64,000 nucleotides of DNA from Myxocyprinus asiaticus (taxonomy: Eukaryota; Chordata; Actinopteri; Cypriniformes; Catostomidae): NCBI RefSeq assembly GCF_019703515.2, contig NC_059379.1, positions 26,192,880-26,256,879 on the forward strand, written 5' to 3'. The position numbers were made by a program, and so were the translations under genes. Positions 16,717-49,285 of the stretch are shown one piece after another (the stretch's first letter is position 1; every line of letters begins with the position of its first letter). The notes under the pieces were generated by a model that saw only the letters and a list, made by a program, of their open reading frames with translations, was not told the origin of the DNA and did no database searches.

Positions 16717-16721
16717 GTGGT

Positions 16722-17212
16722 TGTCACGTCTAGATGTGTTTTTGTTAATGTTTTGTGTTCATGTCTTTTCTTTTGAAAAGTGTCTCCTTGTCATGTTATT
16801 TCTTGCTTCCATGTTTGTTCCTGCTTCCTTGGTCATGTGATTTCATGTTTCCCTCCATGTTCATGTGTCTTGTTTTCATTGGTTTATTGTCTTGTTACCT
16901 TGTAATCAGTACCGTCTTGTCATTGTTTATCATTGTCATGTTTCTCCCTTGTCCATGTATTTAAGCCTCATGTTTTCCATTGTCCATTGTCAGGTATTGT
17001 GAATGTAACTTTGTTGGATTGGTCATGTCATGTCATGTCATGTCATGTCAAGTTTAGCCAAGTCAAGTCAAGTCAAGTTAAAGTCAAGTTCATGTTTTTG
17101 TATTTTTGTTCACGTTGGGAGTTACGGTTTTTGGATTTCACAATTGATAATAAACTGCACTTGGGTTCATCACACATCGTTGTCTTCATCATCTGCCTAT
17201 CATTGCCATACA
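16722..17212 (+). repeat. Left LTR (LTR A)
   Basis: Starts TGTCACGTCTAGATGTG and ends with ACA. It has the same landmarks as the right LTR: GTATTTAAG (TATA-like), a run of CATGT and CAAGT pentamers near 17025-17085, and AATAAA near 17148. At 491 bp it is close to LTR B (483 bp). Confidence 0.85.
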
Positions 17213-17343
17213 GAATACCTGACCGACCTAAATCAACCCAGCAATCCAGCTTCTTCGTTTTCACCAGGGGAATCATTCCCTGGAAAATTATGTGGAGGAC
17301 TTCTGCGCTCTGGCCTTCCGGGTGGACTTTAATGAAGTCGCCC
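17213..17343 (+). pseudogene. gag-like N-terminal fragment, interrupted by piggyBac
   Basis: After the LTR, one reading frame encodes a gag-type stretch containing HSLENYVEDFCALAF. The frame runs straight into the TTAA target and resumes after 25012. The same stretch recurs, with changes, at 26380-26450 and 28470-28560. In those copies the frame breaks soon after, so none is intact. Similarity to gag is inferred from its place after the LTR and from the sequence type. No zinc knuckle is seen. Confidence 0.6.
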
Positions 17344-17584
17344 TTAACCCTCTGGGGTCTGAGAGTGTTTTGGGCTCTGGAGAAGTTTTGACATGCCTTG
17401 ACATTTGTGTGTTTTTTTTTTTTTTTTCAGTTGCTTAAAAACATATTAATGGTTAAAGTCTGATAACACTGTATTCAGCACAAACTGGGCTACAATAATA
17501 TGTGAACAACATGTAAGTACATGTTTGTATTTTTGAGAAAATAACATTTTTTATATAAATAGCATGGTTTTTGAAAAAACAAAA

Positions 17585-17780
17585 GTTCCCTATCTGTCAC
17601 TCACTCGACGTTGGTGTCGATGTAGTGACACTAGGGGTAACTCTTGGGAGCCCGAGACACCTCTGGTCTTTGATAAAAGGCCAATGAAAATTGGCGAGTG
17701 GTATTTGCATGCCACTCCCCCAAACATACGGGTATAAAAGGAGTTGGTATGCAACCACTCATTCAGATTTTCTCTTCGGA
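17585..17780 (+). repeat. DIRS left inverted terminal repeat
   Basis: Begins GTTCCCTATCTGTCACTCAC. From GACGTTGGTGTCGATG (17608) on it is the inverted match of the right repeat. It contains GGGTATAAAAGG near 17730, a likely TATA box for element transcription. Confidence 0.9.
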
Positions 17781-18023
17781 GCCGAACGGTCATGCTCATT
17801 GAGCTGAATACTACTGTTCATTCACCTGCTGGATCTGACGTTGCATTTCAGCGGCTTCTCCCTCCTCTGCACTGGTGCACTGCAGAGAATGCCCCTGGAC
17901 GCTTCGGCAGAAAAACTAGAGAGTATATTTTCTGAAAGAGCATTTTTCCCCTCTAAAAGAGTATATATTTCTCTAAAAGAGCACACACACGGAACGTCTT
18001 TTTAAAGACGCGTCTTTTTAAAG

Positions 18024-19240
18024 ATGCTTTTCCGATTGTGTGTTATTCCTGGTTGTGCTCGTTATCTCTCGCCTTCTAATGGTCACGATCACTGTCTTTC
18101 GTGTCTGGGCACTGCTCACGCGGAGACAGCGTTCGTGGATGGTCACATTCTCATTGCGAGAATGTGTCCATGGCAACGTTGCGGTCGCGGCTCACCTTCG
18201 TAAGGAAGCGAGCCACCCCAGAGGCTCCCGCCTCGGTCCTTTTACCCACGGGTTTGAGGCCAGCGCGGCTAGCACTGGGGGCGATTTGGGGATCCCAATG
18301 TGACCGCCTCCACCGGGTATCCCCCCGCGGACCTCCCATTCCCCAGCACGCTCGTCTGCCCCGATCGGGCTTCCGGGTGAGTCCGCCGGCTCGTCTCACG
18401 GCGAGTTCGACCTCTTATTCGGAGCCCGCGAAAGTGATGAGCTCTCGAGCGCAGCATCGGAGAGCGGGCTCGTCCAGTCGGAAGCCTCAGCTGGGCTCCT
18501 CCCTTCGGGGTCGATCGCCCAGTCACAGGCTGACGCAGAGATGACGACATGCTTTCCCAGACAGCCGCGAGCGTCGGTTAGAGTGGATTTCACCGCTCTT
18601 CCCTGAACCCTCGCGGCTCTGTGATTGGTTCCTGGGCTCGCGGCGCCGCTCAAAGCCACGCCCCGCCCCGTTCCTTTCTTCCCGGAAGTGCATGAAGAGC
18701 TGACAAGGTCGTGGGAGGCATTTCTTACTACCCGGTCCCGATCTTTTCAGCTTCCCCGCCCTCACTACCCTTGATGGTGGGGCGGCCAAGGGTTATTCGG
18801 CAATCCCCAGGTGGATAAAGGCGCTCGCGGTGCACCTATGCCCGCAGAGCGCCACCACCTGGCGCGGGTGCCCAAAGCCCCCGTCCAAGGCCTGTAGGTT
18901 TACGTCGTCTCTGACGGTCAAAGCCTACGGCGCTGCTGGACAAGCCGCCTCCGCCCTGCACGCCATGGCTCTCCTGCAAGTCCGCCAAGGCGCTAAAGGA
19001 ACTGCACGAGGGTAGTTCCGCCCCGGGATTGATGCAGGAACTGTGCTCGGCGACCGACCTCGCTCTCCGAGCGACGGAGGTCACGGGCGTCCCCCTGCGG
19101 TGACTGCACCGGCTCCGCCGCAGCCCGCCCCTCCGGCCCGGCCCCGGCGTGGAGCCCACCGCAGGAAGCCGACGCCACCCGTCTCACAGCCGGCACCGAA
19201 GAACTCACGGAGGTCTTCGAAGCGCCCCTGAGACGGGCGA
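18024..19240 (+). pseudogene. DIRS gag (ORF1) pseudogene
   Basis: The first frame from ATG at 18024 has a Cys/His cluster (CARYLSPSNGHDHCLSCLG) and stops at about 18203. The neighbouring frame continues as a basic, Ser/Pro/Arg-rich stretch to about 18543. Further downstream, 18880-18990 encodes SSLTVKAYGAAGQAASALHA, a motif I associate with the conserved central part of teleost DIRS gag. At least three frame changes and several stops separate these parts. The protein would package element RNA. The call rests on order in the element and on that motif. Confidence 0.7.
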
Positions 19241-19279
19241 CCCAGGGACAACGACACCCGCTGCTCTGGAGCTGGTAAG

Positions 19280-20860
19280 CAGATCTTCTTTTTGTTACCT
19301 TTTGCATTTAATTGCGCTGCATGCCCAAGTGGCTGCAGTACTCAAGAGCTCCGCAAGAGTGGTTTCCTTGTTCCCTGGGTCACATATTCGGTGTGTACGG
19401 CTGGCATCACGACCACGTACACCACTCCATTTGGCAGGTTGGCGCTCCAGCGGCGGTCTCCCGCCCTGAGCGCCCAGCTGTGGCACAAATCCGCCCCCGA
19501 TGTGACAGTCTCCACGGGTCATGAGGACAGACCTCTTCCTCCCCCGTCCCAGGCTGTTGTGGCTGGGGTGGTCACAAGGAGCCAGGTAAGTGCTTCGATG
19601 TCCTCGGACTCAGCACGGCCACGATGTGGTGTGGCACCTCAAGCTCCGCCCCGCCGCGAGGCCCCACCCGCCGGTACAGTACCGCAAAAAGGCGGTGGGT
19701 TGCGGCCAATCTTGGACCTGCGAGTACTGAACCGGGCTTTACACAGACTCCCGTTCAAGATGCTGACGCAAAGACGCATTCTAGCGAGCATCCGGCATCA
19801 AGATTGGTTCGCGGTGGTAGACCCGAAGGATGCGTACTTTTCACGTCTCGATCCTTCCTCGACACAGACCCTTCCTGCAGTTTGCGTTCGTGGGTCAGGC
19901 GTATCGGTACAAGTCCTCCCTTTCGGCCTGTCCCTGTCTCCTCGCATCTTTACGAAGATCGCAGAGGCTGCCCTTGCCCCGTTAAGGGAGGTGGGCATTC
20001 GCATTCTCAACTATCTCGACGACTGGCTAATCCTAGCTCACTCTCGAGACGGGTTATGTGCACACAGGGACCTGGTGCTCTCACACCTCAGCCGACTAGG
20101 GCTTCGGGTCAGCTGGGAAAAGAGCAAGCTCCTCCCGGTTCAGAGCATCTCTTTTCTCGGTTTGGAGTTGGACTCAGTCTCCTTGACGGTGCACCTTACG
20201 AACGAGCGCGCCCAGTCGGTGCTGGCCTGTTTGAAGGCGTTCAAACAGAAAACAGCGGTTCCACTGAAACATTTTCAGAGGCTCCTGGGGCATATGGCGT
20301 CCTCGGCGGTGGCCACCCCGCTCGGGTTGATGCATATGAGACCGCTTCAGCACTGGCTCCAGACTCGAGTCCCGAGACGGGCATGGCGCCACGGGACACA
20401 CCGCGTGGCCATTACGTCGGTCTGTCACCGTCTTTTCAGCCCTTGGACCGACCTCTCGTTTCCATGAGCAGGTGTTCCGCTAGAACTGGTCTCCAGGCAC
20501 GTCGTGGTCACAACAGACGCCTCCAAAATGGGCTGGGGCGCTGTTAGCAACGGGCACGCAGCCGCCGGCCTCTAGACGGGTCCGCAGCTGCATTGGCACA
20601 TCAACTTCCTCGAGTTACTGGCAATTCTGCTCGCCCTGCGGAGGTTCCGGCCGTTGATCCAGGGCAAGCACGTGCTAGTTCGGACAGACAGCATGGCAGC
20701 GGTAGCATATGTCAACCGCCAAGGCGGTCTGCGCTCCCGCTGTATGTCATAACTCGCCTGCCGTCTCCTCCAACGGAGTTAGCAGCACCAAGTCGCTGCA
20801 AGCCACTCACATCCCGGGCAACCTCAACACTTCGGCGGACGCACCGTAACAACAGGTTAC
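19280..20860 (+). pseudogene. DIRS reverse transcriptase/RNase H pseudogene
   Basis: The RT region runs in one frame to 20467. Visible landmarks are GGGLRPILDLRVLNRAL (fingers), FAVVDPKDAYF (first catalytic Asp), VLPFGLSLSPRIF and ILNYLDDWLIL, the YxDD box. A CGA-to-TGA type stop at about 20465-20467 ends the track frame. The same frame continues past it into RNase H with TTDASKMGWGAV, INFLELLAILLAL and RTDSMAAVAYVNR, the acidic residues of that fold. A TAG lies between these motifs and the frame decays after about 20740. This protein would make element cDNA. Catalytic residues are present, but stops make the gene inactive. Confidence 0.9.
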
Positions 20861-20891
20861 CCTCAAGGGAGAGTGGAGACTCCACCTTCAG

Positions 20892-22366
20892 GTGGTCCAG
20901 CTGATTTGGAGTCTATTCAGTCAGGCACAGGTGCACCTGTTCGCCTCCCAAGAATCCTCCCACTGCCCGCTCTGGTACGCCCTCACCGAGGCCTTCCTCG
21001 GCATAGACGCGCTGGCACACAGCTGGTCCCCTGGCATTCGCAAATATGCGTTTTCCCCAGTGAGCCTGCTCGCACAGACCCTGTGCAAGGTCAGGGAGGA
21101 CGAGGAGAAGGTCGTCCTGGTAAGCACCCTACTGGCCCGCCCAGATGTGGTGCTCGGACCTCACGCTCCTCGTGACAGCTCCCCCCGGGCAAACTCCCCT
21201 GAGGAAGGCTTTTCTTTCTCAGGGAAGGGGCACCACCCGGCACCCGCGCCCAGACCTCTGGAATCTCCATGTCTGGCCCCTGGACGGGACGTGGAAGACC
21301 TAAGCTGTCTCCCACCTGTGGTGGTAGACACGTTCACTCAGGCTAGGGCTCCCTCTACGAGGCGCCTGTATGCCTTTAAGTGGTGTCTGTTCGCTAAGTG
21401 GTGTTCTTCCCATCAGGAAGACCCCCAGAGTTGCACAGTCAGATCAGTGCTTTCCTTCCTGCAAGAGAGGTTGGAAGGGAGGCTGTCCCCTTCCACCTTG
21501 AAGGTGTACGTTGCTGCCATAGCAGCACACCATGACGCAGTCGACGGTAAGTCCTTAGGGAAGCATGATCATCAGGTTCCTAAGAGGCGCCAGGAGGCTG
21601 AATCCCTCCAGGCCACGCCTTGTTCCCTCATCGGACCTCTGTAGTTTTTCAGGGTCTACAGAGAGCCCCCTTTGAGTTTTGCAGTCAGGAGGGCAGTCTT
21701 CAAGGAGAGTGCCTTAAGCCCAGCTGACTGCAAAACTCAAAGGGGGCTCTCTGTAGACCCTGAAAAACTACAGAGGTCCGATGAGGGAACAAGGCGTGGC
21801 TCACTTCCATCAAGAGGGTAGGTGACCTGCAAGCGTTCTCTGTCAGCGAAACGTGCCTGGAGTTCGGTCCGGGCTATTCTCACGTGATCCTGAGACCCCC
21901 GACCGGGCTATGTGCCCAAGGTTCCCACCACTCCTTTTAGGGACCAGGTGGTGAACCTGCAAGCGCTGCCCCAGGAGGAGGCAGACCCAGCCCTGTCGTT
22001 GCTGTGTCCGGTGCGCGCTTTACGCATCTATTTGGATCGCACGCAGAGCTTTAGAATCTCTGAGCAGCTCTTTGTCTGCTTTGGTGCACAGCGGAAAGGA
22101 AGCGCTGTCTCCAAGCAGAGGATCGCCCACTGGCTCATTGACGCCATAACTATGGCATGTCTCACCCAAAACGTGCCGCCCCCGGTAGGGCTACGAGCCC
22201 ATTCTACCCGTGGTGTAGCGGCTTCTTGGGCCCTGGCCAGAGGTGCCTCTCTAACAGACATTGCAGAGCAGCGGGCTGGGCAACACCCAACACCTTTGCA
22301 AGGTTCTACAACCTCCGGGTGGAACCGGTTTCGTCCCAGGTAGTGGCACGCAACACAAGCGGATAA
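20892..22366 (+). pseudogene. DIRS tyrosine recombinase pseudogene
   Basis: The upstream frame (20892-21644) contains VDTFTQARAPSTRRLYAFKW, the start of the SAM-like DNA-binding domain, and STLKVYVAAIAAHHD. The frame slips near 21570 and is then destroyed by the inverted duplication at 21612-21800. Sequence similar to the family resumes with TSIKRVGDLQAFSVSE (from about 21802). The catalytic part (21912-22343) includes LCPVRALRIYLDRT and LRAHSTRGVAASWAL, the HxxR box. A one-base loss near 22262 then moves the catalytic tyrosine segment (TFARFYNLRVEP) into another frame. The enzyme would have integrated circular cDNA. Confidence 0.88.
21612..21800. repeat. Perfect 77-bp palindrome with 35-bp spacer
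   Basis: Left arm 21612-21688 and right arm 21724-21800 are exact inverted copies over 77 bp. The 35-bp spacer, read on the opposite strand, gives the sequence expected of the recombinase gene at this point (Leu/Lys/Ala-rich, joining to the segment before TSIKRVGD). The spacer is therefore in flipped orientation. The structure lies in the recombinase gene and removes part of its coding sequence. Confidence 0.92.
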
Positions 22367-22921
22367 GCCCGGGATAGCCGGCCGGGTGTATCGCTTGCAA
22401 ATAGCGCCTTCCACCTCCTTTTGAGCTGAAGACGTGCGCTGTTAATTCCCAGTAGTGTTCACAAAAGTTGTTCCCTGGTTGACTTCCTCCGAGCCCTGTG
22501 GCAGTCGAGTTTTCGGAGAGACTCGCTGCCGGCCCAGTACACGCGCTAACTAAGAGCCTGGTTCTGGGGTAGGTGCTCCGCATGTGGCGGTTCCCTGTAA
22601 GGCTAACCCCATGCGATCTATATCTTCCGCTAGTTCGTTTCCCTACTGGCATACTGCGTCTTCCTTGGGCAGAGCCCCTCAGTCTCCATGTTGTAGTAAC
22701 TCCTCCCCCATTGGGCAGGATCTACCTTGAAGGCTCTCCACATGGTTGGAAAGACCATGTGATGTATTCTTCCACTTAAATATCCCCCCCTCTCTTGGGG
22801 CGAGGTGTGGTCTCCTTGTGAGGCACACAGCAAGTCTGTGTTTGAGGCACACAGCAAGTCTGCCCACCACACACCGCCAGTTCACGTAACACAGTTCAGC
22901 CTTGTGGCGTTTTGTATAGGG

Positions 22922-23029
22922 ACCCCTAGTGTCACTACATCGACACCAATGTCGAGTGAGTGACAGATAGGGAACGTCATGGTTACTGGTGTAACCTCCG
23001 TTCCCTGATGGAGGGAACGAGACGTTGGT
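22922..23029 (+). repeat. DIRS internal complementary region
   Basis: 22922-22975 is the reverse complement of the extreme left terminus (from 17585). 22976-23029 is the reverse complement of the extreme right terminus (to 23304). The two meet at GGAACGTCATGG, the sequence expected at the junction of a circular intermediate. This is the template-bridge feature of DIRS elements. Confidence 0.92.
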
Positions 23030-23082
23030 CCCTCCTGCCACAACGCTGAACTATCCGCTGAAATGGCCGGACCTTATATCGG

Positions 23083-23304
23083 CTCCTCAGCGTAAAACCT
23101 GAATGAGTGGTTGCATACCAGCTTCTTTTATACCCGTATGTTCGGGGGAGTGGCATGCAAATACCACTCGCCAATTTTCATTGGCCTTTTATCAAAGACC
23201 AGAGGTGTCTCGGGCTCCCAAGAGTGACCCCTAGTGTCACTACATCGACACCAACGTCTCGTTCCCTCCATCAGGGAACGGAGGTTACACCAGTAACCAT
23301 GACG
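23083..23304 (-). repeat. DIRS right inverted terminal repeat
   Basis: Matches the left repeat in inverted orientation over about 165 bp and adds about 45 bp at the outer end (GGAACGGAGGTTACACCAGT region). Unequal termini of this sort are restored through the internal complementary region. Confidence 0.9.
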
Positions 23305-24329
23305 TTTTAAGTCACTGAAATAAGGCCATATAACACATACTAAACATTTGTTCACAAGACTTTTCAGAACTGGATCTTGTAGCCTAGAGTTTTTGCTAAA
23401 ATGATGTGAAACCATCCTGATCACTCATTCATACAAAACAATACAGTCATTTAACTTTTGTAAGACACTTTTAGTGTTAGGAACGCCATATGCGAGGAGG
23501 CGTGGATGATCATGAATATTGATGTGATTCACACCTGAGGAGACAAAGACCCCTCCTCTGAGAGAGAATGAATGTGAGGAGACTTAATGATTGAATGTAT
23601 TGTTGTAGCTTATTCACAAAATCAAGTTTAAGTTAAAAGAAATAATCTGACTATACATTTTCTTCACATAAAGACTTTACTTAAAAACTTTAGACCTACA
23701 CTACTGTTTAAAAGATTTTAGATCTGTAAGGTGTTTTAATGTTTTTAAAAGAAGTCTCTTTTGCTCACCAAGGCTGCATTTATTTGATCCAAAATACAGC
23801 AAAAACAGTGATATTGTGAAATATTTTTACAATTTAAAATAACTGTTTTCTATTTGAATTTATTGTAAAATGCAATTTATTCCTGTGATCAAAGCTGAAT
23901 TTTCAGCATCATTACTGCAGTCTTCAGTGTCATATGATCCTTCAGAAATCATTCTAATATGCTGATTTTCTAACATGGGCATATTTACAGCACATTTTAC
24001 ACATTTACACCCGAACAGATATTTGCAAGCACAAGCTTCGTTGATGATAATGAGGCAGCATAAACACTAGTTAATATATAATTCTAAACATTCATATTAT
24101 TTTTATATCATATTACATATCATATTTATATCATATAGCATACAATTTAAATATCTGCTTTAGCCGAAACAACACTTAAAATGTAACTAAAACTTGCCTA
24201 TTAGGACATATTTCAAATTTCAATACTCTGAATCCTGGCTGGCAAGTCTGGAAATAGTCCAACTAGTAAAATATGTACGTTTATATAAAATAGCATGTCA
24301 ACTAATGTACGTAAAACTAAATGACTTAC

Positions 24330-24448
24330 TCATCCGAAATTGTATCCTCGGCTGGATCAAGTCACTCTTCAAAATGCAAACGTTCATTGGATTCCCGCTC
24401 TTCTTCTGAGGAAAATGTGAACTCTTCCTCACCTGTGTAGCATGCCAT
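24330..24448 (-). pseudogene. Relic first exon of a piggyBac-type transposase (copy 2)
   Basis: Minus-strand ATG at 24448 opens an acidic frame broken by an in-frame TGA before the splice donor (GTAAGT from 24329). It is homologous to 4369-4509. No downstream transposase exons remain in the element. Confidence 0.5.
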
Positions 24449-25015
24449 CTTCCAAACACGTAGAAAAGTGAATGAATCTGATGATGAACTTGATGTTTTT
24501 TAAGGCACTGTTGGGGGCGTTTACCATTTGCATTGATCGCCTAAGCATATTACCGTATGAGCAGCACGCTCTGCTGGTGGGTGTGATCACATTAGTGATA
24601 ATTAGCTGAGCCAGGAGAAACTGTACATCGCTTTGTTTCATACAGATTACATTGCAGGAGAATATTTGTTTTAAATTCGAATTGTTTTATTTAAAAGTAG
24701 ACATTTTAAGTTTTCTTTAGACATATGTTTCATGTTTGTATGATAAGAATTCACAGAGTTTCAGTTAATTTTTGTGACGTGTTTCAGAAAGATGCTCGCG
24801 GAGACAGAGACGGCTGAAAGCGCACCCTGTTTATTTTATTTATTTTACAAAAGCACAAGGTTTTGTTGTTATTGTGAGTGTACACAAATAAAAGTAGACC
24901 CTTTATAGTCTCTAATGATGTCTTACACTTATCTGTTTGTCCAAAAATGACGGAGTATTTAAGTTGTTTCCGCTGTTATGAGGGAAAATTCCAGCAGTCG
25001 ACCCCTGAGGGTTAA

Positions 25016-25182
25016 GGACATTTTCCTGGTGGGATTGAATGAGCCAATCTCTTCCCTGATAACTGGCGGGATAAGGTATCGACCTTGCCCTGCAGATAAG
25101 TGGTTCTACGTTCACTGTGGGGGAGGCGGATGCCGAGCCGGAGTCCCACGTCATGGCCGCCAAGTCCGAGTCCCACGTCATG
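25016..25182 (+). pseudogene. gag-like fragment, continuation after the piggyBac insert
   Basis: The frame that stops at the TTAA target at 17344 continues here (from the TTAA, GGACATTTTCCTGG) for about 40 codons, with LNEPISSLITGG. It then reaches the first units of the CCGAGTCCCACGTCATGG minisatellite. It ends abruptly at a join to mid-LTR sequence at about 25183. Confidence 0.6.
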
Positions 25183-26344
25183 TTACCTAGTTATCAGTTC
25201 TGTCTTGTCATTGGCAGGGTTGGGGAGTAACGAAATACATGTAACGGGAATACGTATTTAAAATACAATATATTAGTAACTGTATTCCACTACAGTTACA
25301 ATTTAAATCATTGGTGTTTAGAATAAATATTTTGATTACTGAAAAGATTACTTTGCATTTTATTGTCATTTGTTTAATTTAATATTTAGTCCTTTCAGAT
25401 GGAAAACATTTATACATATAAATGATGCGATCCAAAGTGCATTTGAAAAGCGGTGAAACACTTTCTAATGATGTGTTACATTCATACGAGCAGACAGAGA
25501 AGTTTGAAGTTTGGAGCAGAAGAAACAGAAATAAACCTTGTGTAAATTGTCAGCTTTACGCTAAGCTAAAATGCTATTTCTAGTCATTTTTCATGCACAT
25601 GTTGCCAGGCACGATCATATTTTTTGTCAAGAAAATTCATGTTAGATCATAATTTCTTTTTTTCTAGTAAGACCTTTGATATTAGGGCAAAAATAATATT
25701 TTTGATAATAATTTTAGTATTGTTTTCCTGTAAAAATATTTAAAAATCCTTAAAACGAGATCAATTTGATTTATCTTGTTTCAGAAACAACACTGCATAA
25801 GATATTTAGGTTTTTCAGAGAATGTATTTTTAACATGTGTATTTTGTCTTACTGTACTGGCAGAGTTTTTATAGTCAAAACAAGTGAAAAAAATCTATCA
25901 GTGCTGAAGAAGTAATCCAAAGTATTTAAAATATGTTACTGACCTTGCGTAATCTAACAGAATACGTTACAAATTACATTTTACAGCTTGTATTCTGTAA
26001 TCTGTAGTGGAATACATTTCAAAAGTAACCCTCCCAACCCTGGTCATTGGTTATCATTGTCATGTTTCTCCCTTGTCCATGTATTTAAGCCTCATGTTTG
26101 CCATTGTCCATTGTCAGGTATGTAATGAATTAATGTAACTTTGTTGGATTATTCATGTCATGTCATGTCATGTCAAGTCAAGTTTAGCCAAGTCAAGTCA
26201 AGTTAAAGTCAAGTTCATTTTTTGGTATTTTTGTTCACGTTGGTAGTTACAGTTTTTGGATTTCATGATTGATAATAAACTGCCCTTGAGTTCATCACAC
26301 ATCATCGTCTTCATCGTCTGCCTAACATTGCCAGCATCATTACA
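25183..26344 (+). repeat. Middle LTR (LTR C), 5'-truncated and split by a hAT MITE
   Basis: 25183-25214 and 26043-26344 together match the 3' part of LTR B (from about 27812). The join with gag is at a shared TGTTACC. It ends ATTACA and is followed by GAATACCTGACC, as in LTR A. The hAT insert lies in the middle. Confidence 0.8.
25207..26050. mobile_element. hAT-type MITE with 8-bp target duplication
   Basis: The element spans 25215-26042. It is flanked by GTCATTGG at 25207-25214 and 26043-26050. Terminal repeats are CAGGGTTGGGGAG on the left and CTCCCAACCCTG on the right. The next inner bases also pair loosely (GTAATGGAATACAT-like). An 8-bp duplication and CAGGG ends are hAT traits. The 828-bp interior has no transposase. 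The uninterrupted sequence GTCATTGGTTATC in LTR B shows the empty site. Confidence 0.9.
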
Positions 26345-26460
26345 GAATACCTGACCAACCTAAATGAACCCAGCAATTCAGCTTCTTTGTTTTCTCTAGG
26401 GGAATCGTTCCCTGGAAAATTATGTGGAGGACTTCTGCGCTCTGGCCTATGTGTCATGTC
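26345..26460 (+). pseudogene. Second gag-like N-terminal fragment
   Basis: Starts after LTR C with GAATACCTGACC and includes the GAAAATTATGTGGAGGACTT segment (ENYVEDFCALA). It then runs, out of frame, into the minisatellite. It matches 17213-17343 closely at DNA level. Confidence 0.6.
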
Positions 26461-27555
26461 ATGGCCACTGAGCCCGAGTCCCACATCATGGCCGCCGAGC
26501 CTGAGACCGCTGAGCCAGAGTCCCACGTCATGGCCGCCGAGCTCGAGGCTGCCGAGCCAGGGTCTCACGTCATGGTTGCCGAGCCAGGGTCCCACGTCAT
26601 GGTTGCCGAGCCAGGGTCCCACGTCATGGCCGCCGAGCCATGGTCCCACGTTATGGCCACCGAGCCATGGTCCCATGTTATGGCCACCGAGCCAGGGTCC
26701 CACGTCATGGTCACCGAGCCAGGGTCCTAAGTCATGGTTGCAGAGCCAGGGTCCCATGTCATGGTCACAGAGCTTGCGCCACCTTCTGCCCCGGATCCTG
26801 AGTCTACTCCATGCCATGTCACAGCCACGCCAGAGTCAGCTCCATGCCATGTCACAGCCACACCAGTGTCAGCTCCATGCCATGTCACAGCCACGCCAGA
26901 GTCAGCTCCATGCCATGTCACAGCCATGCCTGGGTCTGCTCCATGCCATGTCACAGCCACACCAGTGTCAGCTCCATGCCATGTCACAGCCACGCCAGAG
27001 TCAGCTCCATGCCATGTCACAGCCATGCCTGGGTCTGCTCCATGCCATGTCACAGCCACGCCTGAGTCTGCTCCATGCCATGTCACAGCAACGCCTCAGC
27101 CTGCTTCACACCATGTCACAGCAAAACCTCAGTCTGCTCCATGCCATGTCACAGCCAAGCTTCAGTCTGCTCCATGCCATGTCTCAGCCAAGCCCCAGAC
27201 TGCTCCATACCATGTCACAAGCAAGCCTTTGCTCCATGGTCCAGGCCCACCTCTGTTCCAAGGTCCAGGCAGGCCTCTGTTCCAAGGTCTAGGCATGCCT
27301 CTGTTCCAAGGTCCAGGCAAGCCTCTGTTCCAAGATCCAGGCACACCTCTGTTCCAAGGTCCAGGCCCACCTCTGCTCCACGGTCCAGGCCTGCCTCTGC
27401 TCCACAGTCCAGGCCTGCCTCTGTTCCACAGTCCAGGCATGGCTTTGCTTTACGAGCCAGCACTCACGCCTGCCACGGCCAACAAGTCAGCATCCACACC
27501 TACCATGGCCAAGTCAGGATACTGCCTTACCATGTTACCACGTCATGCCATGTAG
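26461..27555 (+). repeat. Coding minisatellite tail: 30-, 33- and 24-bp arrays
   Basis: Three arrays follow one another. 26461-26760 has a 30-bp unit (VAEPGSHVM type), 26795-27220 a 33-bp unit (APCHVTATPES type), and 27235-27440 a 24-bp unit (PLFQGPGK type). All unit lengths are multiples of three and the same frame reads through all three, with one TAA near 26728. The predicted product is Pro/His/Ser-rich with no known domain. Overlapping long frames on both strands are consequences of the repeat. The position, between gag start and 3' LTR, suggests a degenerate gag tail. Confidence 0.75.
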
Positions 27556-27636
27556 CCACGTCAAGTCACCATGCCCCCCCCCCCAGCTCCCTCTTGAACT
27601 CTGTGTTTTTGTTTTGGGGCGTCGGGAGCCACACCT

Positions 27637-27650
27637 GGGGGGGGGGGGGG
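27637..27650 (+). promoter_or_regulatory. Polypurine tract candidate
   Basis: A run of Gs ends three bases before the TGTCACA start of LTR B. This is where plus-strand priming would occur. Confidence 0.5.
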
Positions 27651-27653
27651 ATA

Positions 27654-28136
27654 TGTCACATCTAGATGTGTTTTTGTTCATGTTTTGTGTTCATGTCTTT
27701 TACTTTGAAAAGTGTTTCCATGTTTCCATGCCATGTTTGTTCCTGTTTCCTTGGTCATGTGATTTCATGTTTCCCTCCATGTTCATGTGTCTTGTTTTCA
27801 TGGGTTTATTGTCTTGTTACCTTGTTATCAGTTTTGTCTTGTCATTGGTTATCATTGTCATGTTTCTCCCTTGTCTATGTATTTAAGCCTCATGTTTGCC
27901 ATTGTCCATTGTCAGGTATTGTGAATGTAACTTTGCTGGATTGTTCATGTCATGTCATGGCATGTCATGTCAAGTTTAGCCAAATCAAGTCAAGTTAAAG
28001 TCAAGTTCATGTTTTTGTATTTTTGTTCACGTTGGGAGTTACGGTTTTTGGATTTCACAATTGATAATAAACTGCACTTGGGTTCATCACACATCATCGT
28101 CTTATTCGTCTGCCTATCATTGCCAGCATCGTTACA
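27654..28136 (+). repeat. Right LTR (LTR B)
   Basis: TGTCACATCTAGATGTG to CATCGTTACA, 483 bp. It has a TATA-like GTATTTAAG and AATAAA near 28067. It is followed by the GTGGT duplication. It is the most complete copy and the reference for LTR A and C. Confidence 0.88.
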
Positions 28137-28229
28137 GTGGTAGCCTGCAATTGTTATTATAAGAATTTCAACTTGATCTAACCCTTAAAAATTAGTTTTA
28201 CTGGAATAACCTAATGTATTCAGGTTGTT

Positions 28230-28621
28230 TTAATGATGTTAAATTGTATTCTGTAACACTTTATAATAACTATAAGGTATAAAGTATTTGTAAAACATTA
28301 GTTGGTAGTTAACTGATCATTTATAAATTATTTGTTATTGTTTAATATGTTCATTTCACGATTGATAATAAACTGCCCTTGGGTTCATCACACATCATCG
28401 TCTTCATCATCTGCCTAACATTGCCAGCATCGTTACAGAACACCTGACCGACCTAAAAGAACCCAGCAATCAAGCTTCTTCGTTTTCACCAGGGGAATCA
28501 TTCCCTGGAAAATTATGTGGAGGACTTCTGCACTCTGGCCTATGTGTGAAGTCGCCCTTAAGGACGTCATGGCCGCTGAGCTCGAGTCCCACATCATGTT
28601 AAATGATGTTAAATTGTATTC
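28230..28621 (+). repeat. Rearranged block: TIR fragment plus fourth LTR/gag fragment
   Basis: 28235-28345 is a shortened copy of 28605-28810. Between them, 28350-28436 is the last part of an LTR (TTTCACGATTGATAATAAAC to GTTACA). 28437-28602 is a third gag-like start (ENYVEDFC) ending at CACATCATG. This LTR/gag fragment lies outside the GTGGT duplication and so is a separate event. Confidence 0.65.
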
Positions 28622-40462: not shown

Positions 40463-41215
40463 AATTGTCTTCTTTACATTCTGAATTTTTTCAGATAATG
40501 CACTAACATGCTATACACGGCCATAATATGCACCGATTACACTCTGTTATTGTAATTTACGATGACAATGATACTACTGCAAAGATGGGTGTATAAAAGA
40601 GTGTTAATGGGTAGAATACAGTCAAAAGAATGATGATAGGCATATCTTACTTTGGGCAGATGTGTGAATGACTTTTGCTGCAGAAGGCACATGAGTGAAG
40701 CAGCATATCAAACAACAGAGTGAAGGGGGCACTTAAGAGTATTTGAGTAGATTTAATTCCTTCTGTAGAATAATGAAAAAAAAAATGCATGACATGGTCT
40801 TGGAAAATGTCTCTACTTGAGCAATCATACTGATCTAGGTACATTTTTACTAGCTCACTAATAACTCTGTACGCTGATGTGTTGATGTTGACTGATCTTA
40901 ACTGACTGAATGGGAATTAGCTGTCAGCCTCAAAGTAGGTGGAGCTCCAGGTCACACCTACCGATGACGTGGACCAATGGCGGTGAGAAGGTGTTTAGCA
41001 GCTGGGAAGAAGTTTTCCTGAAAGTTCGCTGTTACAAACTACCAAAAACAAATTTAAAAACACCTTTATTTTGGCCAGATTGTTTTCTAAATGACATCAC
41101 ACCTGTTTGTTCTTTGATTTTGTAGGAATTATGCAGAAGTCTTAAAGATGTCTATTGTGGTTATCATCAGTGAAATCCTCATGGTGATCTCATAGTTATG
41201 CATCAACCAATGTTA
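40463..41215. other. Non-genic stretch, nothing recognised
   Basis: AT-rich DNA with short unrelated frames. No repeat boundaries seen. Confidence 0.35.
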
Positions 41216-42275
41216 AGCAAGGGGGTCCATTGGTGTAAGGTGCAGGAGCAGGAGGCAGAAGCCCAGGGGCCGGAGCCACAAGGGGCAGAGCCGCAGGAGT
41301 CTTAGAGGTCAGGGCAGCTGTGGGTGCAGAAGTCAAGGCACTAGGGGACTCAGGGAGCGAGGCACTATGGATCAAGGCAGCAGGGAACTCAGAGGGCTCA
41401 GGGCGCAGGGAAGTGGAGAATTCAAGGGGTAGAGCCATGGAAGACTCGAGGGGAGGAGCCATGGAAGACTCGTTTGTCGCTGGGGGCTGGACAGGCTCGT
41501 CGACAGCCACAGGGAACTGGACAGGCTCGTCGACAGCCTCAGGGAACTTGACAGGCTCGTTGACAGCCTCAGGGAACTGGACAGGCTCGTCAACAGCCTC
41601 AGGGAATGGGACAGAGTCAATGTCTGCAGGGAACAGTTCAGGCTCGTCGACAGCCACAGGGAACTGGACAAGCTCGTTGACAGCGGATCTGGGACGACTA
41701 AGGCTTCAGGCGCTGGCTTTGGGATGGCCGAGGCTTCAGGCGCTGGCTTTGGGACGGCCGAGGCTTCAGGCGCTGGCTCTGGGACAGCCGAGGCTTCAGG
41801 CGCTGGCTCTGGGATGGCCGAGGCTTCAGGCGCTGGCTCTAGGAAGGCACTGACCATGGACCGTGGCAGGCGTGGGCGCCGGCTCGTGGACCATGGCAGA
41901 CGTGGGCGTGGGTGTCGGCTCGTGGACCATGGGAGGTGTGAGCACGTCTTGTGGACCGTGGGAGGTGTGGGCGCTAGCAGGTGGACCGTGGGAGGCGTGG
42001 TTTCTGGCAGTGGCAGGCGTGGCCGCTGGCTCAAGGACCGTGGCAGGCATGGGTGCTAGCTCGTGGGCCGTGGCAGGCATGGGCGCTGGCTCGTGGAAGG
42101 CATGGGCGCTAGCACATGGGCCGTGGCAGGCATGGGCGCTGGCTTGTGGAAGGCGTGGGTGCTAGCTCATGGGCCGTGGCAGGCGTGGGCGCTGGCTTGT
42201 GGACCGTGACAGGCGTGGGTGCTGGCACGTGGGCCGTGGCAGGCATGGGCGCTGGCTCGTGGGCCACACACAGCA
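41216..42275 (-). repeat. Three consecutive 30-bp coding minisatellites (minus-strand peptides)
   Basis: 41490-41680 repeats a unit encoding AVDEPVQFPE on the minus strand. 41690-41850 encodes EASAVPEPAP and 41860-42270 encodes ATVHEPAPTP. All are 30-bp units with point changes. Block order on the minus strand (VHEP, then EASAVPEP, then the rest) parallels the plus-strand ORF at 47590-47900 (VNEP, then EASSVPEP). Both loci therefore derive from one element family in opposite orientation. Open frames on both strands are repeat by-products. Confidence 0.75.
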
Positions 42276-42824
42276 GGGAGAAAACCAACGTGGTCTCATA
42301 GTGAAAACATGACTCTATATAAATTTTTGCAAAAATTGTTATATATGTCTCCAGGTACAATTCCCTTAAGTTTTCAGGAGAAATGAACACTATAGGTGCT
42401 ACAACAACTGCATGTTTTCTTCTCTTTCACTCAAATCATGACTTTAATGGCTGATTATGACTTTATAAATACATATTTTTCTCTCTATTATTCTAACCCA
42501 GCTATTTTATATCCACACACTTTTACTCAAACAGATCTTTTGAAAAACATTACATTTTAATGCTTGTATTACAGATTCACCTACATAGATATGCAACGGT
42601 AGCCAGCTGGTATGTGATAGCTGTGCGGAATGAGTAAAAACGTACTAACCTGGCCTCAAGAGGCACACTAGCGACTGACGCTAGAGGCTGTAGCCTTTAG
42701 CCTCCTTGTTAGTGCGCTGACACCAACATGATCCAGGTTGTGGGATATGCCTTTATTCTCGAAAATGTTGACTGAATTCAACACAATGGCAGTACATAGT
42801 GACTTACTTTATAATTGTATTTAT
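42276..42824. other. Non-genic stretch with duplicated flank
   Basis: 42271-42345 (GGGCCACACACAGCAGGGAG onward) is repeated at 45331-45410. The rest, AT-rich, shows nothing recognisable. Confidence 0.45.
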
Positions 42825-44984: not shown

Positions 44985-45340
44985 GAGGTTTCAGGCGCTG
45001 GCTCTGGGAAGACACTGACCATGGACCATGGCAAGCGTGGGCACCGGCTCGTGGACCGTGGCAGGCGTGGGTGTCGGCTCGTGGACTGTGGGAGGCGTGG
45101 GCGCTAGCAGGTGGACCGTGGGAGGCGTGGGCGCTGGCAGTGGCAGGCGTGGCAGCTGGCTCGAGGACCGTGGCAGGCATGGGCGCTAGCTCGTGGAAGG
45201 CATGGGCGCTAGCTTGTGGGCCGTGGCAGGCGTGGGCGCTGGCTCGTGGACTGTGGCAGGCATGGGCGCTGGCTCATGGAAGGTGTGGGCGCTAGCTCGT
45301 GGGCCGTGGCAGGCGTGGGCACTGGCAGGTGGGCCACACA
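44985..45340 (-). repeat. 30-bp minisatellite, second copy
   Basis: Units of the GTGGCAGGCGTGGGCGCTGG type, the same as 41820-42270. Both flanks match the earlier locus: GGCGCTGGCTCTGGGAAG before, and the CACACAACAGGGAGAAAACC block after. This indicates duplication of the whole segment. Confidence 0.8.
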
Positions 45341-46221
45341 CAACAGGGAGAAAACCAACGTGGTCTCTTAGTGAAAACATGACTCTATATACATTTTTGC
45401 AAAAATTTTTATATATATATATGTTGGAAACTACATATCCAAAAGCAGAACTTTTGCTATGTTTTCTTATTTCCTTGAAACAGTCTGCACTAACTTTCTG
45501 CATACTGTACATAAGAGTTTCTACACATTTTACTCTGTTTTTCTGTGTAATTTCTGTACAATCGGTCACAGAGACTGTTGCACCATTATTTAAATCAATA
45601 CTTAGCAGGTAACGTTTGCAGAGCAGCTCCCTGTGCTATACTTGTAGCCAGTCCCCTCTTACTCCAGCTGCTATATCTGTCTGCATGATAGAAATAAGAT
45701 GATCTGTGTGGTGGATTGCCCATTAAAAATGTCTCTCCATGATTACAACAATATTACTATAGTAAAATCATGGTTAACTTTACCTGGATCAAACCTTTAT
45801 CCCAACTCCCTGATCTTCACCGTGGCCAAATCACTGAGAGGAAATCCACCTTTATTTAAATTCTTATTTAATAATATAAGAGGTATTAAAGAAAATATTA
45901 AGAGTGGAGACAAGAAACAGGATGGGAAAAAGAGGGACAAAAGGTGGAATTGAAAAAAGCACATCAACAACATCATTACCGGTTACACCCCACACCACTG
46001 AAGTGACAGTAGGGGTGCAGTTTGTCTTCAATTTCTGTGTTTCCACCAGACTTTTGGGGAGCAAATAGCTGCACTGTGTGGCAGGTATTTATACCTGGTG
46101 CAATAATCACTCTGGATCACTAAATAGAATGCACCTGGCACATAATATTTCTCTACTGATATGTAGTTAAAGTTTATCTTTTTATATATATAACATTTTC
46201 ATAATTTTGAGATGTTTCTAT
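45341..46221. other. Non-genic stretch
   Basis: 45341-45425 is the duplicated flank noted at 42271. The remainder has no gene or repeat that I can name. Confidence 0.4.
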
Positions 46222-46614: not shown

Positions 46615-47215
46615 TATGAAACTTTCGGCTCATGTGTTGGCTCGTGTGCTCTTCAGGACTTGCGTCACAAGTGCAATGCTCTATCAAATAAGCTACTGTA
46701 CAATTTGATCTAATCTGTCATATTACTCGGGATTTGTGTGAAAGGAAATTAAAGTTGTTGTTGTAGCATCTCTAGAGTTAATTTCTCCAGGAAACTGCTG
46801 TGATACATACAACGAGCCACATAGAAACAAATTGCAGTAATGTAAGTATAGTAATGTGTTTCTATTATTTATTTATTTTCTAGGGTGTGGGGCGGTTGGG
46901 GGGTCTTCATGCCTGATCTCGCCTAGAGCACCATGCGAATCGGGACTGCTACTGTTTATTTGATGGTTTAGTTAACCAGATCTGCTGGCATGGAGACTTG
47001 TTACAGCTTAACACACCAGCAGTTCTAAGAGTGTTTTAATAAAGACTGTGTGAACAGCACTTTGTTATGGCTGTGATCTGTGATTGGTTATAATTAGAGA
47101 CAGAGTCCAGTACTAACATTTGCAACATTTGCCCTAGCGGCCACTAGAGGTCGCCCCCGTGTTCTTTCTATCTTTGTCAGTTGTTAAACCTGTATGGAAG
47201 TTTGGTGTGTTCTTC
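46615..47215. other. Non-genic stretch, possible U3-like segment
   Basis: No gene. 47045-47215 may belong to an LTR upstream of the element below (GCGGCCACTAGAGGTCGCCC motif near 47138), but no second copy in the window confirms it. Confidence 0.35.
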
Positions 47216-47324
47216 TGTTATGTTTTGAGTTACATGTGTTTAGTTTTATGAATAAAAGCCTGCACTTAGATCCTCCTTCTCACACCTCGTTCCTACAGAT
47301 ATTACAGAACAACTGACCCTTACT

Positions 47325-48820
47325 ATGGATCTAGCGGCTTTTCATCTATTTGATCTCAAACAGGGAGAGGGGACCACAGAGCAGTTCTGTGGTCTCGCCC
47401 AGGTTCTCAGTTGGGGAGCTACTGAATTCAAGGACTGTTATCAGTTCTGACTCAACGAGCCAGTGAAGTCATGTCTGCCAGGAGGCAGATGTGATCTTTC
47501 GTTAGTTGAATTCACTGACTATGCTTTGAGGCGTGCATTCTCCCCTTACACTGTGGGGTATGGCAGTAATCCCATGCCGCTACCAGCACCCACACCTGCC
47601 ACGGTCAATGAGCCAGTGCCCACGTCTACCACGGTCAACGAGCCAGCGGCCACGCCTGCCACGGTCAACGAGCCAGCGGCCATGCCTGCCACGGTCAAAG
47701 AGCCAGCGGCCATGCCTGCCATGATCAATGAGCCAGCGGCCATGCCTGCCACGGTCAATGAGCCAGCGGCCACGCCTGCCACGATCAACAAGCCTACGCC
47801 CACGCCTGCCACGGTCAACGAGCCAGTGCCCACACCAGCCATGGTCAACGTGCCAGTGCCTGAAGCCTCGTCCGTCCCAGAGCCAGCATCCTCATCCACT
47901 GAGGCCATTCCCACAGCAGTGCCCCCAGCCGTCTGGAAGAGGAGGAGAAGGGCCCCAGTTGCTGCCAGTGTTCATGGCCACGGCGGCCATTCCCCTGTCA
48001 CTGCCAGTGTTCATGGCCACGGAGGCCATTCTCCTGTCACTGTCAGTGCTCATGGCCATGGAGGCCATTCCCCTGTCACTGTCAGTGCCCATGGCCACAG
48101 AGGCCGTTCCCTTGTCACTGTCAGTGCCCACGGCCACGGAGGTTGTTCCCATGTCACTGCCAGTGCCCACGACCATGGAGGCTGTTCCCCTGTCACTGCC
48201 TGTGCTCACAACCACGGAGGTCATTCCCCTCTCACTGCCAGTGCCCACGGCAATGCAGGTCGTTTCCCTGTCGCTGCTAGCACTCCCTCTCACGGAGGCC
48301 ATTTCACAGCTCCTGAACACAGTGAACATCGACGTCGATCTATTTCTCTGTCCCCTGGGCCTCTGCCTCCTGTGGCTCCGCCTCTTGACCCTCCATGAGT
48401 TCTGTCCTGGTCTCCTGACCCTCCGCCAGTTCCCTTCTTGGAGCTGCCTCCCAAACCACCGGAACTTGTTCCCTTCCTGGAGCTACCTCCCAAACTACCG
48501 GACCTTGTTCCCTTCCTGGAGATGCCTCCCAAACCGCCGGACCCTGTTCCCTTCCTTGAGCCACCTCTCAAACCTCCAGACCCCACTCACTTCCTGGAAC
48601 CACTACCCTGGCCTCCTTGGTCTCCTGACCATCCACCTGATCTGCCCTGGCCTGCCTGGTCTCCTGGTTCATGTCGGTCTTTGGACTCCCCATTCGCTTC
48701 ACCCTGGCTGCCTGGTCTGTTTTGTCCTCTCGTTTCCCCTGTGCTTTCTTGGTCTTCCGGTTCCATGATGTCCTGCTCTTCCCATGAATGTTTTTTTTTT
48801 TTTTTTTTTTTTTATTGTAT
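47325..48820 (+). pseudogene. gag-like ORF with three in-frame repeat blocks
   Basis: From ATG at 47325 (MDLAAFHLFDLKQGEG) one frame runs to about 48820, with only two stops: TGA at 47448 and TGA at 48396. The first 85 codons resemble a retroelement gag start (CDLSLVEFTDYALRRAF). There follow a 30-bp array (ATVNEPAATP, 47590-47860), a 39-bp array (SAHGHGGHSPVTV, about 47955-48300) and four 39-bp units (FLELPPKPPDLVP, 48430-48600). The tail ends in a poly(T) tract. No protease or polymerase follows. The product would be Pro-rich and low-complexity. Its function is unknown; structural gag drift is my preferred reading. Confidence 0.65.
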
Positions 48821-48824
48821 GTTT

Positions 48825-49285
48825 AGAATTGCCAGGATTTGGGGGCATGGGTAGCTCAGCGAGTATTGATGCTGACTACCACCCCTGGAGTCGTGAGTTT
48901 GAATCCAGGGCATGCTGAGTGACTCCAGCCGGGTCTCCTAAGCAACCAAATTGGCCAGGTTGCTAAGGAGGGTAGATTCACATGGGGTAACCTCCTCGTG
49001 GTTGTGATTAGGGGTTCTCGCTCTCAATGGGGTGCGTGGTAAGTTGTGTGTGGATCACGGAGAGTAGCATGAGTCTCCACATGCTGTGAGTCTCCGCAGT
49101 GTCATGCATAATGAGCCACGTGATAAGATGCGCTGACTGACTGTCTTAAAAGCGGAGGCAGCTGAGACTTGTCCTCCGCCACCCGGATTGAAGTGGGTAA
49201 CCATGCCACCATGAGGATCTACTAAGTAGAGGGAATTGGGCATTCCAAATTGGGAGAAAGGGGGATAAAAAAAAAAGAATTGCCA
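48825..49285 (+). mobile_element. tRNA-derived SINE with target duplication, copy 1
   Basis: Flanked by AGAATTGCCA at 48825-48834 and 49276-49285. The head GGGGGCATGGGTAGCTCAGC holds a box A-like TAGCTCAGCGAGT. A box B (GAGTTTGAATCC) lies about 40 bp on. The body is about 350 bp and ends in an A-rich tail after GGGAGAAAGGGGG. Pol III promoter boxes, the direct repeats and the A tail together are diagnostic. The same family recurs at 52.6 and 55.9 kb. Confidence 0.92.

Follow-up and report, generated by a model that had tools for sequence, protein, structure and literature searches.

The window, a stretch of 64,000 nucleotides from Myxocyprinus asiaticus, holds at 16722–28136 a broken and rearranged representative of an abundant LTR element that encodes only half of a gag domain, and a second such element lies at 47.3 kb. 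We consider it probable that the two belong to related LTR families of the Ty3/gypsy type, A and B, which are non-autonomous and self-primed, carry gag only, are mobilised in trans and tolerate a repeat tail. The initial annotation had proposed that gag-only retroelements with repeat-bearing coding tails form a family here, and a family of such LTR elements, present in many copies and with tails of tandem repeats, was upheld: both LTRs were found in 13 of the 17 family A copies whose insides were read, and none of these 13, which were chosen by LTR likeness among the best-scored candidates and do not give a genome-wide share, had room for pol.

The window insertion of family A exceeds the span originally annotated, and its outermost parts are LTRs of the form TGTCAC...TACA (Table 1). 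Two tandem units lie between the outer ends, the first consisting of an LTR, the half gag and two 27-bp units, and the second of a truncated middle LTR, gag, the arrays, a G-rich tract and an LTR. The identity among the LTRs inside the insertion was 90–92%, indicating that the insertion is old. The single outer target duplication suggested that the dimer was inserted as one piece, and exchange between neighbouring copies after insertion is a possible alternative origin. A second dimer-like place, with gag, LTR and gag in succession, was seen at locus L006.

Table 1. Features of the family A and family B elements in the window (window coordinates).
Feature	Position	Strand	Remarks
Left 5-bp target site duplication, GTGGT	16717–16721	.	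Identical bases at 28137–28141
Family A 5' LTR (TGTCAC...TACA)	16722–17212	+	92% identity with the 3' LTR
Family A presumed RNA start, GTCAGGTATT	16989–16998	+	31 nt past the start of TATTTAAG; start inferred
Family A self-primer site, AATACCTGAC	17214–17223	+	Perfect 10-nt complement of 16989–16998
Half gag of unit 1, first part	17235–17345	+	Without ATG in the window copy; Retrotrans_gag 52–84 of 97, 14.3 bits (cut-off of 24.1 not reached)
Piggybac-like later insertion (presumed class)	17348–25011	.	TTAA on both flanks; contains a DIRS-like element
Remainder of half gag of unit 1 and two 27-bp units	25014–25182	+	Frameshifted
Middle LTR	25177–26344	+	Truncated; interrupted by a hAT-like insertion (presumed class)
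Unit 2 primer site and gag start	26346–26468	+	TAG stop; frame change ahead of the arrays
27-bp array, AEPGSHVMA type	26468–26773	+	First units 42 bp; one internal TAA
33-bp array, PESAPCHVTAT type	26797–27219	+	
24-bp array, PLFQGPG type	27221–27439	+	
End of array frame	27440–27555	+	Stop TAG at 27553–27555
Family A 3' LTR	27654–28136	+	G-rich tract before it
Right 5-bp target site duplication, GTGGT	28137–28141	.	
Family B presumed RNA start, GTCAGTTGTT	47176–47185	+	
Family B self-primer site, AACAACTGAC	47308–47317	+	
Family B half gag	47325–47579	+	One TGA stop; small deletion relative to other copies
Family B arrays	47583–48582	+	30 bp, 47583–47856; 39 bp, 47962–48277; 39 bp, 48429–48582

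A reverse transcriptase sequence, an RVT_1 match at 19232–20464, lies together with a weak integrase SAM-like (recombinase) match at 20850–21641 within the later nested insertion at 17348–25011, in agreement with the earlier statement that neither window element contains pol. This insertion, with ends of the form CCCT(C/A)... and TTAA duplications, we take to be piggyBac-like and to be interrupted by a DIRS-like element carrying the reverse transcriptase and recombinase pieces, the classes being assigned from end sequences and duplications. The insertion in the middle LTR (25215–26042), with an 8-bp duplication GTCATTGG and the ends CAGGGTTGGG, is presumably hAT-like, a class again assigned from ends and duplication. 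A further family A fragment (LTR end, primer site, gag start and array unit) was seen at 28353–28598, bracketed by near copies of one stretch of about 120 bp (from 28226 and 28596), and another piggyBac-type transposase lies in pieces at 1546–2587 on the minus strand (DDE_Tnp_1_7). Searches of the window with Rfam (gathering score) and ARAGORN gave no matches.

In the element at 47.3 kb, the array periods of 30, 39 and 39 bp given in the initial annotation were confirmed. The first of the 39-bp arrays is His/Gly-rich in the gag frame, whereas repeats of the SLPVPTATEAVPL type stand there in several other copies; even after a frameshift, a long open frame remains. A protein database search with 47451–48395 gave no match at an E value of 0.001 (7995 candidates scored). 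Array fragments with a 30-bp unit resembling the first family B array were observed on the minus strand at 41196–42330 and 44990–45380; they have a common upstream stretch, and no gag or LTR was recognised in them. The family B element also contains a SINE-like insertion (48840–49279) with a relative in L052 (87%); its head looks tRNA-like by eye, and ARAGORN and Rfam gave no match.

To place these elements in the genome, we searched the window's own assembly (2.34 Gb, 345 contigs). The LTR query yielded at least 43 matches from the 40 scored of 5977 first-look candidates, and fifteen 10-kb stretches and 30 short loci, some of them overlapping, were compared with LTR, gag and end pieces. Other family A copies show the plan: an LTR, a primer site of 10 nt, a half gag of 82 aa and 27- and 33-bp arrays, followed by 24- or 30-bp arrays or a proline-rich tail and then by an LTR. 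In the 13 two-LTR copies the LTRs are 575–2014 bases apart, and 0.6–2.0 kb is too little to hold pol. One of them, L039, has no gag start, and another, L042, apparently carries a further insertion. The LTR pairs of 11 other copies were 89–97% identical in their best stretch; the copies seen are old. An autonomous partner was not found in a limited search: no full-gag place lay within 10 kb of a primer site when 150 of 5272 candidates were compared with 50 of the 191 A sites and 50 of the 59 B sites, which is a weak negative.

In both families, the site directly after the LTR has its complement within the LTR. Of the 23 sites compared in family A, 17 retain a complement of 10–11 nt, as do 7 of 12 family B loci. 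In the 17 A sites, it begins 31 nt after TATTTA in 14 and 30 nt after it in one, TATTTA not being found in two, and the position of the RNA start was inferred from this distance. Two of the remaining six A sites keep 7–8 nt, and in the other four the LTR start is missing, altered or beyond the locus. Exact pairs at the right spacing numbered 191 (A) and 59 (B) genome-wide, compared with 32 and 0 matches, respectively, for a reversed-pattern control. These 32 matches are far over chance and probably represent another repeat family. The A pair sites listed (50 of the 191) have many differing LTR sequences, and a typed half-gag place lies within 600 bases in 8 of these 50.

Two positions, each matched on both sides, distinguish the primer pair of A from that of B, and L055 has one further matched swap; unmatched changes occur in single copies (L016, L018, L049, L052 and L054). 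A change at the RNA start that is copied into the primer site during the replication cycle would explain the matched changes. In the predicted folds of the A and B RNAs, the 5' end lies against the primer site; the stability of the whole-RNA folds was not unusual (z of 0.31 and −1.09), and 5000 shuffles produced a 10-nt complement 25 and 58 times. Complementarity between the primer site and the presumed RNA 5' end, by which Tf1/sushi priming is recognised, is present in both families, and the elements appear, from their sequences, to be primed by their own presumed RNA 5' end.

The gag is not a whole one; of the Retrotrans_gag domain it covers only the last half. Five of the eight proteins sent to Pfam matched Retrotrans_gag, all five spanning profile positions 52 to 97 of 97, with scores of 16.2–21.0 bits, under the curated cut-off of 24.1. 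The half gags are 82–84 aa long, and a zinc knuckle or a complete capsid was not seen. A search of PDB sequences with the 37-aa gag start gave nothing credible. Fuller gag domains are common elsewhere in the genome, 148 of the 150 scored beginning at profile position 7 or before and the others at 16 and 26. The half gags of A and B are 39% identical, and they share a start point in the middle of the domain, since the matches in both begin at profile position 52. The suggestion of a related second family at 47.3 kb is borne out. The half gags of L021 and L026 are apparent chimeras of two family A subtypes, with one type first and the other after it, suggesting template switching or recombination.

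Two further readings can be considered. It is possible, and we hold this only tentatively, that A and B go back to a long-lived line of self-primed parasites from which pol and the initial half of the capsid domain had disappeared before the two families split. This line would since have persisted by joining the remaining half capsid to rapidly changing tandem-repeat tails, each family expanding its own repeats in frame, with the tail as a working module. The elements might also be ordinary deletion derivatives of an autonomous family, in which the half gag and tail are functionless leftovers and spread occurs purely as RNA templates; the partial gag match, lacking a zinc knuckle and a complete capsid, and the weak constraint on the tail are consistent with this. 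Against it, the same start point is found in two families of such low identity, the dN/dS of the family A half gag was 0.39 (10 copies) and 0.41 (15 copies, compared with 0.62 and 1.08 in the other frames), and among the best-scoring 150 of 7804 candidates, 133 half-gag places were stop-free and 17 had internal stops. We therefore regard simple deletion derivatives as rather unlikely. In the same set, the open frame holding the half gag reached 300 aa or more in 63 cases and 450 aa or more in 21. The family B half gag gave a dN/dS of 0.71, from four copies only.

The window copy has three successive arrays between the gag-like start and the 3' LTR, as annotated, with units of 33 and 24 bp in the second and third (12.8 and 9.1 copies); the unit of the first is 27 bp (26551–26773, 8.3 copies) and not 30 bp, and this array is preceded by a 42-bp period at 26468–26585. 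Spacings of 27 and 33 bp were present in all 18 family A copies examined, the window copy among them, and the unit length is therefore fixed within family A and the copy number variable, ranging from 2.0 to 12.7 units in the first array and from 2.1 to 16.1 in the second (TRF, where called at 27/33 bp). TRF called the second array at 66 bp in L005 and at 153 bp in L034 and left the first array uncalled in L016. The likeness of units was 0.900 and 0.872 within copies versus 0.848 and 0.851 between copies. The expectation that array units vary between copies thus failed within family A and was correct between the families, whose unit lengths differ.

These arrays could be non-coding minisatellites that grew where the element is dead or untranslated, as near the 3' ends of plant Ogre elements, and be open only through stop-free units; untranslated arrays have a precedent in the available part of that description (PMC9659126). 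The window arrays share one frame with one stop within, and all three forward frames are nearly open (2, 1 and 5 stops over 26461–27555), so that their openness is weak evidence of coding and was rejected as proof by itself. The dN/dS of the repeat units, 0.59 and 0.75, was likewise indistinguishable from 1, as both ranges include it. In contrast, the TRF periods were divisible by 3 in all 64 arrays of 17 family A copies and in 62 of 66 arrays of 12 family B loci, that is, in 126 of 130 inside the elements compared with 22 of 50 outside them; the Fisher p value of 3e-15 is too strong, because the copies share ancestry. The phase from the gag end to the first array was also equal in all 15 copies with a gag end found (three of 18 rows had none), and the gag frame was the poorest in stops, with one in 738 codons of the first array (other frames, 4 and 6), none in 1441 codons of the second (1 and 52) and seven in 2072 codons of the tail (23 and 57). 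On this evidence, we consider non-coding arrays unlikely.

The claim that the frame is kept from the gag start through the arrays accordingly applies to the window arrays among themselves and to other genomic copies; the window gag has a TAG stop and lies in a different frame. The phase from the last match of the first array to the first match of the second was equal in 14 of 18 copies and that from the second array to the tail in 9 of 10, frame changes occurred inside the first array of several single copies, and two copies are open from the gag Met through the arrays (478 and 465 aa). Judged by these copies, gag and arrays were formerly in one frame in the family of the window copy. The tail had a dN/dS of 0.67, versus 0.78 and 0.87 in the other frames (10 copies). 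At the level of codon substitutions, selection is visible on the family A half gag, not clearly on the repeats, and weakly in B; the repeats and tail are distinguished by their paucity of stops, not by dN/dS. An origin as a domesticated gag or as a host gene containing mucin-like repeats has in its favour only the abundance of proline, serine and threonine in the repeats. It is hardly conceivable given the many genomic places, LTR pairs, primer site and target duplication, and was rejected because of the copy number and the LTRs.

For related gag-only families mobilised in trans, the reading we prefer, the cycle would run as follows. The RNA would start at the GTCAG... site within the LTR, and its first 10 nt would pair with the site just past the LTR, from which minus-strand synthesis would be primed in the manner of Tf1/sushi. 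A single ORF, beginning a few bases after the primer site, would encode the last half of the capsid domain (82–84 aa) and continue in frame through tandem repeats that gain and lose whole units. Another element would have to supply reverse transcriptase and integrase in trans, and probably the greater part of the capsid as well, and the repeat tail would be a tolerated, length-variable and probably disordered extension. The window copy is a tandem dimer, best read as recombinant, which is bounded by a single outer target duplication and has since decayed.

Gag-only elements and self-priming are each already known. The first 11 RNA bases of Tf1 pair with its primer site (PMC7175516), and self-primers are reported for Tf1/Sushi elements in yeast and vertebrates (PMC6317226), in the parts of these papers available. 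As excerpted, the description of Sushi LTRs gives TGTYANR...CNTNACA ends, AATAAA near the 3' end and a T-rich U3 (PMC3601003). Family A is similar, with TGTCACA...CGTTACA ends, AATAAA at 411 of 483 and a U3 of 51% T, but its ends also match the rGmr1 motif of the same source, and the family B LTR end in the window, TATTACA, is without the C of CNTNACA. Unlike Tf1/sushi, both families have no pol, a half gag, a repeat tail and a primer of 10 nt, not 11.

Plant TR-GAG elements (Chaparro et al. 2015, cited in PMC10552921) have, in the portion accessible, terminal repeats and gag without pol, as do the two-LTR family A copies (13 of 13). A recognisable GAG domain characterises TR-GAG, and our families have only half of one (profile 52–97 of 97, 16.2–21.0 bits versus the cut-off of 24.1). 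They further differ by their self-primer, by a repeat tail that stays in frame and by occurring in an animal. The zebrafish families Bik-1 and Bik-2 are described, in the available text, as gag-only families able to move, for which a partner must have existed, and as Lokiretrovirus-like and recently active, with a Bik-1 gag of 617 aa comprising a coiled coil and a capsid domain (PMC10996621). The half gag of 82–84 aa, with a partial Retrotrans_gag match only, sets A and B apart from the Bik elements as so described, and repeat arrays are unmentioned in those parts of the description (PMC10996621). The minisatellites of plant Gmr9/Ogre elements lie, according to the sections available, in the 3' untranslated region (PMC3305785, PMC9659126); the arrays of A and B have a similar place, ahead of the 3' LTR and after the coding part, but their periods and phase preserve the reading frame.

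A high-copy family uniting gag-only content, a self-primer, half a capsid and an in-frame minisatellite tail was not found in searches of open-licence papers. The half gag, if working, would show how little capsid suffices for a parasite. Because the ten-base primer pair is exact at as many as 191 and 59 sites, self-priming can be put to a natural test in a genome of vertebrate size. If the tail is a working module, it might, for example, enter or disturb the particles of other elements and evolve by the gain and loss of whole units, and if it matters, the copies would form a natural series of repeat-length variants.
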